Under the pieces are notes generated by a model. That model was given only the letters and a program-made list of their open reading frames with translations. It made no database searches and was not told the origin of the DNA. Positions 12,065-20,961 of a stretch of 64,000 bases of DNA are shown here, in pieces (the stretch's first letter is position 1; each line of letters starts with the position of its first letter). The position numbers were made by a program, and so were the translations under genes. The DNA is taken from positions 62,001 through 126,000 of the forward strand of contig JACQEZ010000005.1 in the NCBI GenBank assembly GCA_016200325.1, written 5' to 3'. This DNA comes from Candidatus Manganitrophaceae bacterium. GTDB taxonomy: Bacteria; Nitrospirota; Nitrospiria; SBBL01; Manganitrophaceae.

Positions 12065-12694
12065 TTATTCGATTATGGCGGCGAGCTGCGCCGCGGAAAC
12101 ACGCCCTTCGCGCACGATCCGCGGCGGGGTGACGGTGACGTCCAACACGGTCGATGGAAGGGGGGTGCAGGGGCCGCCGTCTAGAATCGCGTCGACTGAT
12201 TCACCGAGGGTCTGCTCGACCTCTTGCGCCGACGCCGGCGACGCGTCGCCGGAGCGATTGGCGCTCGTGGCGGTAATCGGGATACCGACCGTTTGGATCA
12301 GTTGAAGCGGAAGGGGTGCGCTTGGCAGACGAACGCCGATCTTTCCGCTCCCGCCGGTTAATAAAGGGGATAAGCGCTTCGACGCCTGAAAAACGAGCGT
12401 AAGGGGACCGGGCCAAAAAGCGTCGATGAGTTTCTCCGCGATCGGAGGGATCTCTTCAATCAAAGGGGAGAGCATCGCCCGATCGGCGATGAGGAGGAGG
12501 ATCGGTTTGGAGTAGGCCCTCCCCTTGATCGTAAAGAGGCGGCGGACGGCATCGGCGTCGAAGGGGTCGGCGGCAAGTCCGTAGAAGGTGTCTGTCGGAA
12601 TGGCAACCACCCCCCCCTTATGGATCAGCGCGGCAATTTCTTGAAGGACCCGCCGCTCCGGATGGTTCGGATCAACCGGGATGACCTTTCTCAT
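12065..12694 (-). CDS. tsaC: L-threonylcarbamoyladenylate synthase (YrdC/Sua5 domain)
   Basis: Makes threonylcarbamoyl-AMP from threonine, bicarbonate and ATP for the t6A37 modification of ANN-decoding tRNAs. The YrdC core is clear: GGVVAIPTDTFYGLAADPFDADAVRRLFTIKGRAYSKPILLLI, then WPGPLTLVF and the SANRSGDASP block. The start at 12694 (MRKVIPVDPNHPERRVLQEIA) gives 209 aa, the short TsaC form without the Sua5 extra domain. It overlaps the purE end by 23 nt. Confidence 0.92.
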   Translation of the reverse strand: MRKVIPVDPNHPERRVLQEIAALIHKGGVVAIPTDTFYGLAADPFDADAVRRLFTIKGRAYSKPILLLIADRAMLSPLIEEIPPIAEKLIDAFWPGPLTLVFQASKRLSPLLTGGSGKIGVRLPSAPLPLQLIQTVGIPITATSANRSGDASPASAQEVEQTLGESVDAILDGGPCTPLPSTVLDVTVTPPRIVREGRVSAAQLAAIIE

Positions 12695-13184
12695 GAAACC
12701 GTTTCCCCTTGGCTTCGACTTCTTCAGCAAGGGACTTCTTGTAAGAGAGAAGGCGCTTGGCGAGATCGGAGGAGCGGCGCGCGAGAATCTGCGTCGCCAG
12801 AATCCCGGCGTTTTTGGCGCCGGCCTTGCCGATTGCCACCGTCGCAACCGGAATGCCGCTCGGCATCTGGACGGTGGAGAGTAGGGAGTCCAGACCATTC
12901 AACGGGGAAGAGCTGATCGGAACGCCGATCACGGGAAGAATCGTCTCTGCCGCGATCACCCCGGCCAGATGGGCCGCGCCCCCCGCCCCGGCGATGATCA
13001 CATCGACCCCGCGCGTTTCGGCTTCGTGGATCAGCCTTTTCGTTCGCTCGGGAGAGCGGTGGGCGGAAGAGAGGGTCATCTCATACGGCACCTCGAATTC
13101 CTTCAAGATTTTGGCCGCCTCCTGCATGACTTCCCAATCCGAATCGCTCCCCATCAAAATGAGAACAGAACCTTTTTCCGTCAT
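12672..13184 (-). CDS. purE: N5-carboxyaminoimidazole ribonucleotide mutase PurE
   Basis: Class I PurE converts N5-CAIR to CAIR in purine synthesis. Signature: LMGSDSDWEVMQEAAKILKEFEVPYEMTLSSAHRSPERT, then GAGGAAHLAGVIAAETILPVIGVPI. The ATG at 13184 is preceded by GAGGGG, and the 170 aa are normal. Upstream one would expect purD, but purD starts 6.2 kb away across an accessory island, so purE now sits at the head of the purE-tsaC-kinase-regulator run and must have gained its own promoter or be read from the island. Confidence 0.95.
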   Translation of the reverse strand: MTEKGSVLILMGSDSDWEVMQEAAKILKEFEVPYEMTLSSAHRSPERTKRLIHEAETRGVDVIIAGAGGAAHLAGVIAAETILPVIGVPISSSPLNGLDSLLSTVQMPSGIPVATVAIGKAGAKNAGILATQILARRSSDLAKRLLSYKKSLAEEVEAKGKRFHEKGHPG

Positions 13185-13220
13185 CGCATCCCCTCGTAAA
13201 TGAATACGCCAAGTTAACAT

Positions 13221-13560
13221 AGCTTTAAGAAGGGTGTCAAGGGAACCGGCGGCTAAGGGAGGCCCTTATTATTAGCGGAGACGGGTTGGATAACCCCTGG
13301 CTTTGAATGCCGAAAGTGGAGGAGTAATATGATGATAACTCGGTCGGAATCGGCAGCTCCTTCCGACTCAGCTCCTACATGTTTTTATTGAGATCGCCTC
13401 AAGCAGAGCCGCTCATCCTCCATCATTTATCATTAACGATGTAAAATTTTTATACTACTCCTTCATAGAATACCGTCCCTTCTTTGCTCACTCCGTTTCG
13501 GATCATTAGATCTTCCTTCGCTCCGATCTCTCACCTCCACTCTATTGGCTTATCTCCCAT
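13221..13560. other. Left island border; no established gene
   Basis: Gap between purE and the sigma-54 promoter at 13561. It holds a possible 20-codon frame at 13329-13391 (described separately), a 7-bp hairpin inside that frame, and A/T-rich stretches (about 13430-13460). No known gene or clear insertion-sequence end seen. Confidence 0.5.
13329..13391 (+). CDS. Possible 20-residue peptide (weak)
   Basis: A short frame (MMITRSESAAPSDSAPTCFY) with GGAGGAG 4 nt before the first ATG. The interior carries a hairpin with 7-bp arms, 13343-13349 and 13361-13367. It could be a leader peptide, a relic, or chance. No homology claim is made. Confidence 0.2.
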   Translation: MMITRSESAAPSDSAPTCFY

Positions 13561-13576
13561 TGGCATTGATCTTGCT
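13561..13576 (+). promoter_or_regulatory. Sigma-54 (-24/-12) promoter for the CBS protein
   Basis: TGGCATTGATCTTGCT keeps GG-N10-GC and differs from consensus only at the base after TGGCA and the next position. The start of transcription would be near 13587. That rules out the in-frame start at 13545 and supports the ATG at 13632. Confidence 0.65.
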
Positions 13577-13631
13577 GATTCCCAGGTTAGGTATTGAACG
13601 AAACAGGATAATCCAGGGAGAGGTATTGCTT

Positions 13632-14051
13632 ATGTTACCGACGATAGAAAAGTTAGTCTCGGGAAAGATTCATTCCATCGAATCAGAGCAGAGCGTCCGG
13701 AATGCGGCGGAAGCAATGGCGGCGAACCGGATCGGAAGCCTTCTCGTCGCAGAAGATGGAACCTATATCGGAATTATTACGGAAGTCGATATCATCCGGA
13801 AGGTGGTGGCGAAGGGACTCGATCCGGCCACCATGGCAGTTCAGAAAGTGATGACCTCGCCGCTGATCACGATCGACGCCGACCGGTCGGTCCTCGATGC
13901 GAACGACATCATGGAGCGGAAGAAGATCCGCCACCTGGTGGTAACCCGAAGAGGAAAGGTGATCGGGATGGTCTCCGTCCGGGACTTTCTCCATCCCCTC
14001 GATTTTGAGGAAGACGAAGAGAGCGGGTATGAACGGGCGAGCGGCTTTTGA
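13632..14051 (+). CDS. Tandem CBS-domain protein
   Basis: A 139-aa protein made of two CBS motifs (a Bateman module) and little else: CBS1 about residues 10-65 (EQSVRNAAEAMAANRIGSLLVAEDGTYIGIITEVDIIRKVV), CBS2 about 72-125 (PLITIDADRSVLDANDIMERKKIRHLVVTRRGKVIGMVSVRDFL). Such proteins sense adenine nucleotides or other small ligands. An AGG-rich ribosome site lies about 8 nt before 13632. With the sigma-54-type promoter and the next membrane gene it looks like a small stress or energy-sensing operon. Confidence 0.88.
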   Translation: MLPTIEKLVSGKIHSIESEQSVRNAAEAMAANRIGSLLVAEDGTYIGIITEVDIIRKVVAKGLDPATMAVQKVMTSPLITIDADRSVLDANDIMERKKIRHLVVTRRGKVIGMVSVRDFLHPLDFEEDEESGYERASGF

Positions 14052-14080
14052 TTTGGATTTTTAAGTGAGGAGGAATTGCA

Positions 14081-14371
14081 ATGTATCAGATGCGTTTTTT
14101 GAAAACTTTCTTCCTGAGCACGAGCTTTCTACTTTTCGGAATACTCGGACTTGCGCAGGCGGCCGGTCGGCCAGTTGAGCCTGATCAATGGGTGCTCGGG
14201 GATTATCTTCTGGCTGGCGCGCTGTTTCTGATTGTGATTGCTTTTCTGACGGGCGCTTATGCGCTGCTGTTCAGCAACAGCCGGCCATTAATCAAACGGG
14301 CGTTTCTTTATCCTTTGTTTAAGGTAATAGGAATGGAGGGGGAGAAGAAGCCGCTGATTACGAAAAAATAA
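14081..14371 (+). CDS. Small exported/membrane protein
   Basis: A 96-aa protein with a signal-like first helix (FLKTFFLSTSFLLFGILGLAQAA), a short polar region (GRPVEPDQWVLGDY) and a second helix (LLAGALFLIVIAFLTGAYALLF), ending in a basic tail. GAGGAGG precedes the ATG. It follows the CBS gene by 29 nt and is probably its operon partner. No family recognised. Confidence 0.6.
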   Translation: MYQMRFLKTFFLSTSFLLFGILGLAQAAGRPVEPDQWVLGDYLLAGALFLIVIAFLTGAYALLFSNSRPLIKRAFLYPLFKVIGMEGEKKPLITKK

Positions 14372-14434
14372 GCTTATCCAAAAACTCGTTGTCACGAATA
14401 ATCATCAGAAACGTCGGAGAGGAATAGAACCACA

Positions 14435-14510
14435 TCAAGAACAAGAGGACGAACCACCCCCGCAGCCACCGGATCCGGATGAGGTACCTCCCGAAGAAGG
14501 GTATCTAGGC
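14435..14510 (-). pseudogene. Orphan C-terminal tail of a small Gly/Ser/Cys-rich protein
   Basis: On the minus strand this encodes YPSSGGTSSGSGGCGGGSSSCS followed by a stop, nearly the same as the end of the intact small gene at 17461-17646. Upstream sequence that would encode the membrane segment is absent. It is therefore read as the truncated remnant of a second copy, 3 kb away and in the same orientation. Confidence 0.6.
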
Positions 14511-14543
14511 AAAAAGTTCGACACGTGTTAACGAAAGGGCTTC

Positions 14544-14586
14544 GAGAGGGGCCGTCGGATTGTCTCCGACGGCCCCTCTCCTTTTT
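14544..14586 (+). terminator. Strong rho-independent terminator
   Basis: A perfect 16-bp stem (14544-14559 with 14565-14580), 5-nt loop, then CTTTTTGTTTTT. It ends the CBS/membrane-protein transcript. Confidence 0.9.
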
Positions 14587-14984
14587 GTTTTTACAACAGA
14601 ATCTCAATGTGCATTCTGAGCGTTACAAATCATTCTCCAAGACCCCAGATAGGACTCGAACCGATCTTACCTCTGTGGGATTAAATATTCTTCCAAAGGA
14701 GGGTCGAGTTCAGGACGGAAAGAATCATTCATTAACACGAATCTCCCACTTGTTGACAACTGCATTTGAACCTCTCTTTCCAACCGGTCCTCTCCAGCTT
14801 GACGACACAGTACCAGGAGAAGGCTGAGATCGCCTGTACCTTAGGGAGGCAATTCTTTGACTCCGGAGATTTTGAAGTCGCGCTCCTTCAATGGGAACGA
14901 GCAAAGGTTCTTCTGCCCTCGCTTGAAGCATACTCAGGCATCTCCCAAAACGCTTCGTTACGCCATCAGATTCTGGGCGCACGC
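14587..14984. other. Gene-free stretch with possible decayed coding remnants
   Basis: No intact gene. On the plus strand about 14805-14940 encodes a TPR-like segment (ACTLGRQFFDSGDFEVALLQWERAKVLLP), which suggests a remnant of a repeat protein. On the minus strand near 14641-14675 a tRNA T-arm-like stretch (GGTTCGAGTCC) occurs without the rest of a tRNA. Both are weak. Confidence 0.3.
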
Positions 14985-15620
14985 TTAGCGAATCACCTGC
15001 TGCTTCCGGAGAGATTTCATAATCACGGACACATAGTTCTCGATCAGGTCCCGATGATCGCTCCGGATCAGGGTCTCGCTGGCCGCGGACCAGATGAGCT
15101 TGTCCGTGGCGACGTCGTAGAGGTTCGCTTCCGCAATGGCATATTCGTCCTCCGTCATGTAAGCCGGTTGGTAGATCGTGTCGTAGCCTCGGCTGTAATA
15201 ACCGCCCCAGGAATTGTAGTATGCGGGGTATCCCGGGCTGTGGTGTCCCGCTGCAGGAACATAATTCAGGTCGGTGCGCCTATCGACCACCCTCGTCAAG
15301 AAAAGGACGTCGGCGCCCACTTCTTTGAGCTGCGCGGCAATCACCTCTTTTTCGGCCAGTTCTTCACCAGGCAAAATCGTATAGCCCGCCACGGCGTCAA
15401 CCCCGCCCGCCTTCAACTGTTGAACGAAAGTGTCTTCAATGAGCCGCCGGTTCGCCGGCTTTTGGAGCATCCCCAGAACCAGAATCTTTCGGGGCGTATT
15501 TTCATAGTCGGGATCCTTCCAGACGGACGTCAGCTTTGTCGATGCGCACGAGGTCGCCAGGAGCGATGCCGCGAGCAGCCACGAGACCAGACCGGTACAA
15601 ATGTTCCTATTCTTCTTCAT
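14985..15620 (-). CDS. Putative outer-membrane lipoprotein
   Basis: A 211-aa protein with a lipoprotein signal (MKKNRNICTGLVSWLLAASLLATSC). The mature part opens with ASTKLTSVWKDPDYENTPRKILVLGMLQKPANRRLIEDTFVQQLKAGGVDAVAGYTILPG, a pattern seen in conserved hypothetical lipoproteins of metal-reducing and nitrite-oxidising bacteria, with a Tyr/Gly-rich insert (HHSPGYPAYYNSWGGYYSRGYD). AGGAG lies 6 nt before the start at 15620; an upstream start at 15800 would add 60 unlikely residues. Function unknown. Confidence 0.75.
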   Translation of the reverse strand: MKKNRNICTGLVSWLLAASLLATSCASTKLTSVWKDPDYENTPRKILVLGMLQKPANRRLIEDTFVQQLKAGGVDAVAGYTILPGEELAEKEVIAAQLKEVGADVLFLTRVVDRRTDLNYVPAAGHHSPGYPAYYNSWGGYYSRGYDTIYQPAYMTEDEYAIAEANLYDVATDKLIWSAASETLIRSDHRDLIENYVSVIMKSLRKQQVIR

Positions 15621-16464
15621 CTCTTTCTCCTTTTTTGGATCTGCACCGCAGGCGCGCTCCCCGCCTGTGAGGGCGCGGTTGGCGAGCGGATAAAACAAGG
15701 GCAAACCCACTCCGATCGAAGAATTCCTCGGATGGAAGGCGTTTCCTTCTTCCCCCTCCCGAGGGGCAGAGAACGCGACCAGCATGGGTACGCCTCTCAC
15801 GACGCAGATTCGTAAACGTTCATATCGTTCTACTTGTGGAAAGAGATACTCTTACAGCATCCAGGAAATGACATCCAACCTCCAGGTGTTGAAATCCGGG
15901 AGATGCGACGCCTCGTCGATATCGATCCATACCTTATTGTAATTGGCCCGTCATCCGAACGGGCGGTTGATCTCGAACAGAACGGCGACGGCGGTGTTGT
16001 AGCTCAGGTCGTTTTCCGTCTTGGTCGAAACATCGTCGCTCCGTGAGCTCCTGCTGATGACACCGTTTAATTGAAAATGATCGTTGAAGTTGTAGCCGAG
16101 GGTTCGCCCGCCCGCAATCATGGCCTGTCACGCTTCGGCCCGGATCGGCTGGAGCAATCCCTCTGTCAGAGCACTCGCCGTCCCTTCGGCTCAAAAATTT
16201 TAAATCAATTTTAAGAGAATCGTTCCCCTCGCGATGCAACGGCTCTTACAGACCAGATCAGACGGACTAAGCAAAAATGGAAGATAGTTTCACCGAGGCA
16301 AACCACTCCATAAAGAAAGCCCCGGCGAAGGAGAGGAAGATAACGGGCTGCCCCAAGCCGAATGCTTACGTCGTCGTCTGTCCGGAGGGGGCCGTTCCTG
16401 ACCCAGATCGGGTAGGCCCTTCCGGCCGAGAAGACAGGGTTCGTGAAGGCATGGAGGAGGGCAG
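15621..16464. other. Island interior without an intact gene
   Basis: Apart from the barrel fragment at 15951-16130, the stretch shows only short frames. Minus strand 15860-15945 encodes a plausible short end (NKVWIDIDEASHLPDFNTWRLDVISWML, then stop), possibly another relic. A 63-codon plus frame at 16277-16468 overlaps the MarC start, lacks a ribosome site and is not accepted. Confidence 0.4.
15951..16130 (-). pseudogene. C-terminal fragment of an outer-membrane beta-barrel protein
   Basis: The minus frame reads GRTLGYNFNDHFQLNGVISRSSRSDDVSTKTENDLSYNTAVAVLFEINRPFG then stop: alternating polar/hydrophobic strands, as in the last two strands of an outer-membrane barrel. A stop lies just upstream (near 16130) and there is no start or signal peptide, so the gene is broken. 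Parent family not identified. Confidence 0.45.
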
Positions 16465-17109
16465 GTGACGGTTTTTCTACAGAGCTTCGGCCACGTGTTT
16501 GCAGCCCTTTTTCCCGTGGTCAATCCCCCGGGCATGGCGTTGCTTTTTCTTGCCATGACCCGACGGGCGAGTCGGGCAGAGCGGACCCTCCTCGCCGGAC
16601 GGATTGCGGTATACGCATTCTTGGTCGTGAACGTGGCCTACTATGTCGGAACGGTGATTCTCCATTTTTTTGATATCTCGTTGCCGGTGCTTCGGGTGGC
16701 CGGCGGTATCGTGCTCGCCTCCTCCGGCTGGCGTCTTCTGAATGAAACCCGATCGGGCAGCGACGCCGGCCTGGACGTCGGCGGCGGTTCGGGCGATTGG
16801 GCCCGTGTGGCGTTTTATCCGCTGACGATGCCGGTCACCACCGGACCCGGGACAATTTCGGTGGCGATTGCGTTGGGCGCCATTCTGCCGAAGAAAGTTC
16901 CGGTCATGCTGGGAGCCCTGGCGGCGAGCGGTCTCGTATCGGGCGCCATCTATCTCTGCTACCGATATGCGGACCGGATCGAAAACCGGCTGGGGCAGAC
17001 CGGCTCTGAAGCGCTCTCCCGCCTCTTTGCCTTCATCCTCATCTGCATCGGCATTCAGATTTTGTGGAACGGGTTCTCGGAGCTGTGGGCCTCGTTGCCC
17101 GCGAAATAA
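16465..17109 (+). CDS. MarC-family integral membrane protein
   Basis: A 214-aa protein with about six transmembrane helices and the MarC/YhgN signatures FPVVNPPGMALLFLAMT near the start and FYPLTMPVTTGPGTISVAI in the middle. The family is broad, with no settled transport function; the old multiple-antibiotic-resistance link is not supported. The start is GTG at 16465 with GGAGG upstream. It is the only large intact membrane gene in the island. Confidence 0.88.
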   Translation: MTVFLQSFGHVFAALFPVVNPPGMALLFLAMTRRASRAERTLLAGRIAVYAFLVVNVAYYVGTVILHFFDISLPVLRVAGGIVLASSGWRLLNETRSGSDAGLDVGGGSGDWARVAFYPLTMPVTTGPGTISVAIALGAILPKKVPVMLGALAASGLVSGAIYLCYRYADRIENRLGQTGSEALSRLFAFILICIGIQILWNGFSELWASLPAK

Positions 17110-17141
17110 GAGTCCTCAACGGCGTGGAAGGTCGGTCACAC

Positions 17142-17409
17142 AAGAAGGGGTCAGATCTTATCTTTTGACATTTCTATTAGACAATAGGCCTGGCACAGCC
17201 AGTAATATCGCCGGTTGATCTTGTATAGAATGCGTCTAAAAAGAGCTCCCGGTCTTCTTTACTCTGTAAGGATGGCTTTTTTGTCGTTCCCTCGGGTGGT
17301 GATGTGGTAGAGGGCTCCGTCATATTCGATACTCAAGGGTCTGGCCATGAGGCTTATTTAATGCTCCTCCAGTGAAAAATGCCAAGATCAAAGACCTGAC
17401 CCTTCTTCT
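17142..17409 (-). mobile_element. Relic of a REP-associated tyrosine transposase element
   Basis: The ends are inverted: AGAAGGGGTCAGATCTT on the left (from 17143) and, read from the right end inwards, AGAAGGGTCAGGTCTTTG (to about 17408). Between them is a truncated, frameshifted transposase start on the minus strand. This is the usual layout of TnpA-REP loci, here internally deleted to about 270 bp. Confidence 0.7.
17211..17348 (-). pseudogene. REP-associated tyrosine transposase (Y1_Tnp), N-terminal remnant
   Basis: From ATG 17348 the frame reads MARPLSIEYDGALYHITTRGNDKKAILTE, the family's hallmark N-terminus, then meets TAA. Shifting one base restores KEDRELFLDAFYTRSTG, matching the next segment of the family. 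Thus one frameshift plus loss of the catalytic HUH/Tyr region and the C-terminus. The enzyme normally handles single-stranded REP ends; this copy cannot be active. Confidence 0.75.
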
Positions 17410-17460
17410 ACAAAGTTTTCTAGACGTTTTTAAATGACCATGGACAGAAGTAGGAATGAA

Positions 17461-17646
17461 TCAAGAACAAGAGGACGGGCCACCCCCGCAGCCACCCGAT
17501 GACGTACCTCCTGATGAAGGATATCTATTTTCACCTGCCCTCAGCTTGGGAGGTTGCATGGGGGGTGGATTAAAAAAGCCGGCGAAAAAAACGGGACCGA
17601 GAATTGGAACAAAGATAATAATTGTCCAGAATAATTTTTCTGACAC
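17461..17646 (-). CDS. Small one-helix protein with Gly/Ser/Cys-rich tail (PLDc_N-like)
   Basis: A 61-aa protein: one hydrophobic helix (LFWTIIIFVPILGPVFFAGF) with the Pro-Ile-Leu-Gly-Pro pattern seen in PLDc_N-type short membrane proteins, a linker PPPMQPPKLRA, and a Gly/Ser/Cys tail (SSGGTSSGGCGGGPSSCS). A near-identical tail occurs at 14435-14510. A 71-codon plus-strand frame (17456-17671) covers the same DNA; the minus frame is preferred because it makes a coherent membrane protein. Function unknown. Confidence 0.5.
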   Translation of the reverse strand: MSEKLFWTIIIFVPILGPVFFAGFFNPPPMQPPKLRAGENRYPSSGGTSSGGCGGGPSSCS

Positions 17647-17819
17647 ATTTCTAGCTGCGCGCCATAGATAAAAACTGCATCCAAGTGAGACCAGTAAGCT
17701 TACTAATACGACAATATTCTAAATATTTAATAAAGGGGGTAAATCGAAAGGCTCGATTTAAAGTTCGCGCTTGCATACCCGGTCAGTAGGGCTCGGCACG
17801 GCGGGTGTGTTGCTGGAAA
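17647..17819. other. A/T-rich gap, no gene seen
   Basis: Stretch upstream of the small membrane gene and downstream of the Uma2 fragment. It is A/T-rich around 17690-17745; no promoter or repeat could be defended. A GGCAC...TTGCT pair near 17795 has the wrong spacing for a sigma-54 site. Confidence 0.4.
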
Positions 17820-18110
17820 TTACTCGAAGATGTGGCTGAGAGAAATTTGAAGTTCGGGAAGGAGGGAGGTGGAGAGGACATCATTCGTCTCTCGGGAGAG
17901 CTCGGCGGTGCGTAGACAACCTTGATCGGTCATCCGATAAACCTTCACCGTCTCCAGCTCCGGGTCAACGACCCGATATTCTGAGACGCTATATTGCTCA
18001 TAAAGCTTCCGCTTAATCACCTCGTCGATCTTCCGAGTCGATTCAGCGACAATTTCAATCACAAGGTCGGGCGGGCCCTGGACATTTCTGGCTACTCCGC
18101 CGATGCCCCA
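17820..18110 (-). pseudogene. Uma2-family (DUF820) endonuclease-like C-terminal fragment
   Basis: The minus frame gives QGPPDLVIEIVAESTRKIDEVIKRKLYEQYSVSEYRVVDPELETVKVYRM..., the C-terminal half of the PD-(D/E)xK-like Uma2 fold (PDLVIEI, then Tyr..SVSEYRVVDP). The N-terminal half is missing: upstream the frame runs straight into the reversed-frame 3' end of purD. It lacks a start codon and is a truncated remnant fused by recombination. Confidence 0.75.
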
Positions 18111-19354
18111 ATATCCTTCCGATATTGCATCCCCCGAAAGGAAATGCAATCGACCGCCTGATAGGCGCGGCGGCGCGCCTCCGGAACCGTCTTGCCGAGC
18201 GCGGTCACACCCAACACCCGCCCTCCTTGGGTGATCCACTCCTCCCCGCGCCGCGCGGTTCCGGCGTGGAAGACGACGACATCGGCGACGATATCGGATA
18301 GATCGATTCGGTCAAGGCCGGAGATCACTTCCCCTTTTTGGTAGGGGCCGGGATAGCCTTCGGAGGCGAGGACGATACAGACCGCTGCCTCTTCTCGCCA
18401 TTCCAGCTTCATCTGGTCGAGGCGATGATCGAGCGCCGCCTCCATCACATCGACCCAATCGGTTTTCAAACGAGGGAGAACCGCTTGCGTTTCCGGGTCG
18501 CCCCAACGGGCATTGAATTCTAAAACATGAGGACCGAGCGACGTAAGCATCAGCCCGGCATAGAGAACCCCGCGATAGGGCGTTCCCTCCGCCGCCAAGC
18601 CGCGCAGCGTCGGATAAATGATCCGCTCCATCACTTGCGCTTCAATCTCGGGAGTGATTCTCGGCGTCGGCGAGATCGCCCCCATCCCGCCGGTGTTCGG
18701 TCCCTGGTCGCCATCATAGATTCGCTTGTGATCTTGCGCGGAGGCGAGCGGCAGGGCGCGGATGCCGTCGGTGATCACGAAGAAGGTCGCCTCGATCCCT
18801 TTGAGATACCGCTCCAGAATAATTCGATTGGCCGCCTCTCCCATCGACCGGAAGCCGTCGAGCCCTTCTTTCGCCTCTTTCAAGTCGCGGGCGATCACCA
18901 CCCCCTTACCGGCGGCCAGCCCCTCGACCTTTAAAACAACCGGCATCGGAATCGAAGTGATCCGAGCGTAGGCTTCATCCAGAGTGACCACCTCCGCCGC
19001 GGCGGTTGGGATCTGATATTTTTGCATTAATTTTTTGGAGAAGACCTTGCTTGTCTCGATTTCGGCGGCGGCGCGGTGCGGCCCGAAGATCCGAAGCCCG
19101 TGCGCCTCGAACCGATCGACGATGCCATGCGACAGCGGCAGCTCCGGCCCGACGACGGTGAGATCGATCGGTTTCTCCTTGGCAAAAGCGAGGAGCTTTT
19201 CGACCTCGTCGACGGCGACCGGGACGATCTCGGCCTGCGCCGCGATCCCCGGATTTCCCGGCGCGCAATAGAGCTTGCGAACGCGCGGGCTCTGTGCGAT
19301 CTTCCAAACGAGCGCATGCTCCCGCCCTCCGCCTCCGATCACAAGAACATTCAT
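18092..19354 (-). CDS. purD: Phosphoribosylamine--glycine ligase PurD
   Basis: ATP-grasp enzyme joining phosphoribosylamine and glycine to form GAR, step 2 of purine synthesis. The N-terminus MNVLVIGGGGREHALVWKIAQSP and the ATP-grasp block (VEGLAAGKGVVIARDLKEA; GDQGPNTGGMGAISP; EFNARWGDPETQAVLPRL) are intact. The 420 aa are normal, but the last residues (RKDIGASAE) differ from the usual RRDIGxRAL end: the final few codons and the stop come from the adjoining Uma2-derived DNA. It should still be active, since only the extreme C-terminus is changed. Confidence 0.95.
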   Translation of the reverse strand: MNVLVIGGGGREHALVWKIAQSPRVRKLYCAPGNPGIAAQAEIVPVAVDEVEKLLAFAKEKPIDLTVVGPELPLSHGIVDRFEAHGLRIFGPHRAAAEIETSKVFSKKLMQKYQIPTAAAEVVTLDEAYARITSIPMPVVLKVEGLAAGKGVVIARDLKEAKEGLDGFRSMGEAANRIILERYLKGIEATFFVITDGIRALPLASAQDHKRIYDGDQGPNTGGMGAISPTPRITPEIEAQVMERIIYPTLRGLAAEGTPYRGVLYAGLMLTSLGPHVLEFNARWGDPETQAVLPRLKTDWVDVMEAALDHRLDQMKLEWREEAAVCIVLASEGYPGPYQKGEVISGLDRIDLSDIVADVVVFHAGTARRGEEWITQGGRVLGVTALGKTVPEARRRAYQAVDCISFRGMQYRKDIGASAE

Positions 19355-19385: not shown

Positions 19386-20948
19386 TTAATGTCGGAAGTG
19401 TCTGAAGCCGGTCAAGACCATCGCTATGTCGTGCTCGTCGGCCGCCTGGACGATCTCCTGATCCCGGATCGACCCCCCCGGCTGAATCACCGCGGTAATC
19501 CCGGCCTGGGCTGCGGCATCGACCCCGTCGCGGAAGGGGAAGAAGGCATCGGAGGCCATCACGCAGCCGGCGGTCGGCATCTGCGCCTTCATCGTCGCGA
19601 GCTTTACCGAGTCGACCCGGCTCATCTGACCGGCGCCGATGCCGACCGTCTGTCCCGGTTTTGCGAAGATGATCGCGTTGGACTTCACATGTTTGCAGAC
19701 CCGCCAGGCGAAGAGCATCGCCGAGAGCTCTTCCGGGGTCGGCGGTCGGCGGCTGACGACCTTCAACGCCTTCGGATCGTCGATCATCGCGCTGTCGATC
19801 TCTTGGACCAGCAATCCCCCGCCGATCCGGCGGAAATCGAGCCGGCCGGCGTTCGAAGATGCAATCGAGCCACTTCCCGCCTCCAAGACACGCAGGTCTT
19901 TCTTCTTTTGTAGAATCGGGAGCGCCTCAGGTGCGATCGTCGGGGCGATGATCACTTCCATAAAGGTGGAGGTGATCTCCTGCGCCGTCTCGGCATCGAG
20001 CGGCCGATTGAAGGCGGCCACCCCGCCGAAGGCCGAGACCGGGTCGGTCGCCTTCGCCTTCTTGTATGCTTCGACGAGCGATGCGCCGGTCGCAACACCG
20101 CAAGGATTATTATGCTTGATGATGACGGCGGCCGGCTCTTTGAACTCTTTGACCAGCTCGAAGGCGGAGTGGGTGTCGAGGAAGTTGTTGTATGACATCT
20201 CCTTCCCCCAGATCTGTTTCGCGGCGGCAACACCCCCTTCGGTCCGTTGGAGCTCTCGGTAAAAGGCCGCCTGCTGATGCGGGTTCTCGCCGTAACGGAG
20301 CGATTGAACCTTTTCGAATTGGAGGACGAGGTGGTCCGGGAAGGCCTCCCCCTTCTTCACCCTTCCTTCCAGATAGGAGAAGATCGTTCGGTCGTAATCG
20401 GAGGTGGTGAAGAAGACCTTCTTGGCGAGATCGTACCGCTTCTCTTCCGAGAGGGCACCGCCGGAGCGCTTCATTTCATTGAGGACCGCGGCATAGTCCT
20501 TGGGGTCGATGATTACGGCGACATCGTGGTAGTTCTTGGCGGCGGAGCGGAGCATCGTCGGCCCGCCGATGTCGATGTTCTCGATCGCCTCTTCCAGCGT
20601 GACGTTCGGCTTGGAGATCGTCGCCTTGAAGGGGTAGAGGTTCACCGCGACGAGATCGATCGGCTCAATCCCCTGCGCCTTCATTTGAGCTTGGTGTTGG
20701 GGATCGTCGCGCCGCCCCAAAATCCCGCCGTGGATCTTCGGGTGAAGCGTCTTCACCCGGCCGTCGAGCATCTCCGGAAATCCGGTATGCTCCGAGACCT
20801 CCTTCACGGCGACGCCTTTTTCCTTGAGAAGCTTGAACGTTCCCCCGGTCGAGAGAAGTTCCACCCCCATCGCCTGCAGCCCTTGGGCAAACTCGACGAT
20901 TCCTTCTTTATCGTAGACACTCAGGATTGCTCTTTTTATTTTTCCCAT
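19386..20948 (-). CDS. purH: Bifunctional AICAR transformylase/IMP cyclohydrolase PurH
   Basis: Catalyses the last two steps to IMP. The N-terminal cyclohydrolase domain (about 1-195: [38 protein letters not shown]) and C-terminal transformylase domain ([20 protein letters not shown], and the late [16 protein letters not shown] block) are both complete; 520 aa. The ATG at 20948 is preferred (GAGGT 7 nt upstream) to the GTG one codon before. It precedes purD by 31 nt, so purH-purD form an operon. Confidence 0.96.
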
Positions 20949-20961
20949 CACCCAGACCTCG

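Follow-up and report, generated by a model that had tools for sequence, protein, structure and literature searches.

The stretch of DNA considered here (the window, 64,000 nucleotides) belongs to a Candidatus Manganitrophaceae bacterium whose genome assembly (G000) comprises 4.2 Mb in 20 contigs, and it lies inside a contig of 134.6 kb. It carries the purine genes purH, purD and purE, all on the minus strand, and 4,907 bases (13,185-18,091) separate the stop codon of purD from the start of purE, a gap occupied by genes in both orientations. An earlier note on this DNA had described an accessory island of about 4.9 kb, made of genes of mixed orientation and lacking any complete transposase or integrase, that splits the pur operon. 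The distance and the mixed content are as it described, and no integrase or transposase domain was found in the 18 open reading frames of the window scanned with Pfam (8 + 10). The comparison of six genomes of the genus (G000-G005, one per species, mostly drafts) leads nevertheless to another interpretation: we are fairly confident that the purD-purE junction in this genus is a hotspot of gene turnover without mobility genes, of a kind already known, and not a single new mobile element.

The features of the locus are given below in the direction of transcription of the purine genes. The names sua5, GH15-like, porin, glycosyltransferase, PAP2 and RND were read from translations unless a Pfam match is given.

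19,386-20,951, minus strand: purH (open reading frame and tblastn to the relatives)
18,092-19,354, minus strand: purD, intact, with its stop codon at the junction (open reading frame and homology through the stop codon)
17,814-18,089, minus strand: 3′ part of a gene of the Uma2 family, immediately after the purD stop (PF05685, positions 92-171 of 172)
17,461-17,700, minus strand: small membrane-protein gene or remnant with a weak PLDc_N-like match, whose 3′ tail is copy 2 of a direct repeat (17,460-17,527)
16,465-17,109, plus strand: marC, intact (PF01914, positions 2-201 of 203)
15,840-16,101, minus strand: broken outer-membrane beta-barrel gene (OMP), truncated, internally deleted and flipped relative to marC
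14,985-15,620, minus strand: lipoprotein gene of unknown family (no Pfam match)
14,507-14,694, strand unassigned: relic made of a strong terminator hairpin (14,544-14,580) and a flank resembling the sequence downstream of tRNA-Asn
14,434-14,507, minus strand: copy 1 of the direct repeat, a relic that retains only the tail of the small gene at 17,461
14,081-14,371, plus strand: small membrane-protein gene, an old resident common to G002-G005
13,632-14,051, plus strand: CBS-domain gene (PF00571), an old resident common to G002-G005
13,212-13,240, minus strand: promoter-like sequence of purE (TTGACA, 17 nt, TTAACT), a conserved element
12,672-13,184, minus strand: purE, with an ATG start
12,065-12,694, minus strand: gene 3′ of purE which we take to be of the sua5/ywlC type (translation, relatives)

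A hotspot is supported by the variability of the junction itself. purD and purE-sua5 are collinear in G000 and in G002-G005, and so is purH, with an alignment that is broken in G004. When the 46 genes collinear in the window, G002, G004 and G005 are considered, the interval between purD and the membrane-protein gene shows the largest spread in length of the 45 intervals in the window (3,884 bp), measuring 3,721 bp in G000, 132 bp in both G002 and G004, and 4,016 bp in G005. The interval from the CBS gene to the purE-sua5 side ranks second, with a spread of 1,581 bp, and the third-ranked interval reaches 973 bp. Furthermore, the purine-gene flanks are about 92-98% identical among G002, G004 and G005, and of these three only G005 carries the 4.0-kb insert at the first of these points, with a cargo unlike that of the window; thus an empty site (132 bp in G002 and G004) and a filled one (4,016 bp in G005) occur side by side though their purD regions are 95-96% identical. 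At the second point, between the CBS gene and a gene for a thiol-peroxidase-like protein, G002 (L066) has a toxin-antitoxin pair of the ParE/Phd type, G004 (L068) one of the HicA/HicB type, and G005 neither.

Two side observations concern these same genomes. The toxin-antitoxin pairs of G002 and G004 have nearly identical breakpoints in genomes that are closely related. In turn, tblastn returns the purH of G004 (L068) in three segments at 69-78% identity and aligns that of the other relatives unbroken at 88-89%; the G004 gene may contain frameshifts or assembly errors.

The earlier note had also called the right junction precise, and this proved accurate, since the homology of purD runs through its stop codon and that of the Uma2 fragment begins at 18,080, only 11 bases away. 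The insert of the window and that of G005 each start at the purD stop codon, where they take the place of the short spacer. Because the same junction recurs with different cargo in G005, its precision would more likely reflect selection keeping purD intact than the cut of a site-specific enzyme. The outer limits proposed for the island had to be corrected, as its end at 18,110 overlaps the final 19 bases of purD and its start at 13,221 falls in a part of an over-extended purE reading frame.

The separation of purD from purE is nonetheless derived, and this part of the earlier claim stands. Among 80 purD loci from species genomes used as an outgroup survey, purE lies downstream of purD on the same strand in 28, and in 27 of these the gap is of 14-234 bp (in Omnitrophota, Thermodesulfovibrionia, Zixibacteria and others), the sole exception, of 7,598 bp, being a Manganitrophaceae record. 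In the remaining loci purE is upstream (18), downstream on the opposite strand (1) or not found in the stretch examined (33). As tight linkage is common in the lineages that have purE downstream, contiguous purD-purE is the outgroup state, and the split seen in the window is therefore derived, from added DNA. Closer to the window the picture is more varied. In the same class purD and purE are 88 bases apart in G019, and 2.1-4.5 kb of other genes lie between them in G022, G023, G027, G034, G036 and G040; in the same taxonomic order, outside the family, none of 12 genomes had the two genes within 10 kb. Altogether, the tight purH-purD-purE-sua5 cluster is likely the older state, and the joint would have been broken or filled more than once within the class.

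In seven of those 12 genomes (L011, L013, L014, L016, L017, L018 and L020) purH-purD runs straight into sua5 with no purE between, and purE sits elsewhere, at 49-53% identity to that of the window, which suggests its loss and replacement. In the same class, at L074, L076, L077 and L078, the joint contains four genes in the same direction, envelope-lipid/glycan-like to judge from their translations only.

What did not stand is the idea that the whole 4.9 kb would be an island of this genome. purD and purE are linked and already split in all four relatives in which the linkage can be seen, by 2.8 kb (G002), 7.6 kb (G003), 2.7 kb (G004) and 5.8 kb (G005), and the convergent genes for the small membrane protein and the CBS-domain protein are present in every one of them. 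This pair (13,632-14,371, about 0.75 kb) is thus a shared old resident, only 14,372-18,091 (3.7 kb) being private to the window genome, and this private part is composite. The gene-order comparison that the earlier note had proposed as a check gave neither an uninterrupted purH-purD-purE nor a constant spacing, the spacing being variable. The thiol-peroxidase-like gene (Redoxin family) is found in G002-G005 and is lacking in the window genome, where the best match has 25% identity; in G001 the locus is spread over two contigs and the 4.1 kb upstream of its purE contain different genes.

The private DNA is a patchwork of the Uma2 fragment, relics, the lipoprotein gene, and marC with the broken OMP gene. 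The Uma2 fragment (Pfam match at 17,820-18,089) is 72-73% identical in DNA to copies in G001 and G002. The lipoprotein gene has no match in the five other genomes of the genus, and its homologues, at 28-52%, occur in four other genomes of the same class. Over about 100 bp, the terminator and its flank share 82% identity with DNA downstream of a tRNA-Asn gene on another contig of the same genome, C11. The peptide of the relic beside the terminator, searched in six genomes, gave a single short match per genome in four of them, none being reported in the window genome, and no parent gene. A direct repeat (14,434-14,507 and 17,460-17,527) brackets about 3.0 kb; its alignment scores 88, whereas none of 300 shuffles exceeded 28, and between its copies there are two gaps and 6 mismatches in 68 aligned sites. 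It had been considered as a possible att site, a candidate that was dropped when the repeat was recognised as the 3′-terminal part of a small gene on the minus strand, of which the longer copy exists only at 17,461-17,700. Beyond the window genome, intergenic relics like that at 14,507-14,694, with a hairpin terminator and a short conserved frame, recur in G001 (L102), G002 (L101) and contig C395 of G003 (L100), where they sit near, or resemble, the 3′ flank of tRNA-Asn.

The origin of marC and OMP can be followed further. In DNA, marC is 88% identical to a sequence of G005 (C1:3,995,854), and the two genes together match G005 and G004 at 78-88%, adjoining there each other and a porin gene; no match to marC was found in G001-G003. 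The OMP gene, whose weak outer-membrane beta-barrel Pfam match spans 15,951-16,121, and marC have their only copy found in G000 in the window. On C11 of G000 (574,244-577,823), the porin and the downstream GH15-like genes are collinear with those of G005, and 488 bp replace marC and OMP; this short stretch has no convincing match to the DNA of the purD-purE gap. Identity to G005 at fourfold sites is 0.81 for marC, which groups with the block on C11 (16 genes, median 0.71, range 0.46-0.88) and not with 34 genes of the window (median 0.49, range 0.29-0.62). The simplest reading is that marC and OMP were probably relocated within the genome from C11 (near 575.5 kb), their neighbours being left in place. 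A transfer of marC between species was the first reading of its value of 0.81 in comparison with the purine genes, but the entire C11 block proved alike, and the value alone does not decide between transfer and relocation. The block itself deserves mention: C11:563,000-596,000 (L226-L228) corresponds to C1:3.98-4.017 Mb of G005 over at least 14 genes, with a synonymous-site identity well above that of the core genes of the window (medians 0.71 vs 0.49), and was probably exchanged between species as a unit.

Exchange may also have occurred at the junction. A segment of 159 bp in the G005 insert shares 95.6% identity and its orientation with DNA of G001 that lies about 3.6 kb upstream of the purE gene, and between these two genomes the purH, purD and purE flanks are 79-84% identical. 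This match suggests that cargo passes between species at this site and is the best sign of it. Evidence of relocation inside G005 for its own insert was limited to a single match of 65% that spans about 390 bp. A broader proposal, that the junction would be an active site of exchange across species, where cargo including toxin-antitoxin pairs moves by recombination in the flanking purine genes and where relocated segments of the own genome, such as marC from C11, are captured as well, is one that we put forward tentatively and with more doubt than conviction.

The persistence of such a gap calls for attention to the transcription of purE. In all six genomes of the genus the DNA upstream of purE contains TTGACA and, beyond a 17-nt spacer, TTAACT, TTAATT or TTACTT, and from its sequence this element may be active as a promoter. 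With a promoter of its own, purE-sua5 would be independent of transcription coming from purD, and the gap would be tolerated for this reason.

The sequence of events that we propose is the following. An old insertion would have parted purH-purD from purE-sua5 before the sampled species diverged. Since then, each lineage would on its own have gained, lost and again gained DNA at two points of the junction, one extending from purD to the convergent pair of membrane and CBS genes and the other from that pair to purE. In the window genome, the first point would have received the 3.7-kb patchwork, including the marC and OMP segment moved from C11. Several points weigh against this account or parts of it. 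The genus is represented by six genomes only, mostly drafts, and in G001 the locus is broken, so that purD-purE linkage is unseen there; the sign of exchange between species is one short fragment that involves this same broken locus. The fourfold-site identity of purH and purD of the window to G005 (0.59 and 0.55) falls inside the background of 0.29-0.62 and so gives no direct indication that the flanks in G000 underwent homologous replacement. A relocation presupposes that marC and OMP were formerly in C11, the GH15-like gene and the marC segment of G004 are separated by some 6 kb instead of adjoining each other, and a separate transfer of marC from a donor like G004 or G005 may fit the fourfold values as well. 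A strict scan for consensus promoters did not flag the purE element. Finally, a direct repeat around 3.0 kb would also be expected if this DNA had been inserted as a unit.

This last point leads to the possibility of a degenerate integrative element, in which the 3.0-kb segment between the repeats would have entered as a unit, the terminator like the tRNA-Asn flank marking one end and the integrase having since been lost. The score of the repeat, far beyond those of the shuffles, the similarity of the terminator to the DNA of C11 and the similar relics of G001, G002 and G003 speak for it, but the repeat corresponds to a small gene's 3′ end and not to an att-like core, its copies have diverged, the integrase domain is lacking and the tRNA-Asn gene is on C11, a tRNA search of the window having found no tRNA gene. 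An Rfam search gave sub-threshold matches only. We consider this origin improbable.

Even less credit can be given to the two other explanations, which we regard as about equally remote. One accessory island that entered, in this lineage and in a single event, a contiguous pur operon, as the earlier note would have it, agrees with the tight purD-purE of many outgroups and with the 3.7 kb private to the window genome; yet it is contradicted by the comparison of the genus, in which the four linked relatives are already split and share the CBS and membrane genes, and by a cargo that comes from several unrelated sources. That the patchwork would be partly chimeric, an artefact of assembly, might be thought from its scrambled order and its flipped OMP and marC pieces, but the stretch is interior to its contig, its pieces have diverged from all the other copies found and were thus not copied from another contig, and variable cargo is seen independently in other species. 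A hotspot of turnover remains the reading that we favor.

Among known systems, integrative elements at tRNA genes constitute an established category, which the window segment recalls by its relic resembling the tRNA-Asn flank and its direct repeat, and from which it differs by the lack of an integrase, of a tRNA gene and of clean att-like repeats. The tight purD-purE(-sua5) cluster of Omnitrophota, Thermodesulfovibrionia and Zixibacteria has the same order and strand, with 14-234 bp where this genus has 2.7-7.6 kb of variable DNA. Among the titles listed in the literature searched, none is dedicated to the purD-purE joint. Separating the old split from the recent cargo corrects the plausible reading of a recent island in an operon, and the locus offers a compact natural case of hotspot turnover without mobile elements, with empty and filled sites next to closely similar purD regions, together with one probable relocation within a genome whose donor site is still recognisable. 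Chromosomal hotspots of gene transfer devoid of mobile elements have been described by comparing genomes within 80 species under a statistical threshold (Oliveira et al., 2017; PMC5635113). As far as the part of that study considered here extends, the present case differs in comparing six species of one genus at one locus, with no genome-wide threshold, and in its siting inside an ancestral purine gene cluster, which is not met in that part. With its conserved core flanks, the high turnover of unrelated cargo and the lack of integrase and transposase, the locus, whose turnover was ranked within the window, fits this published category as described there.

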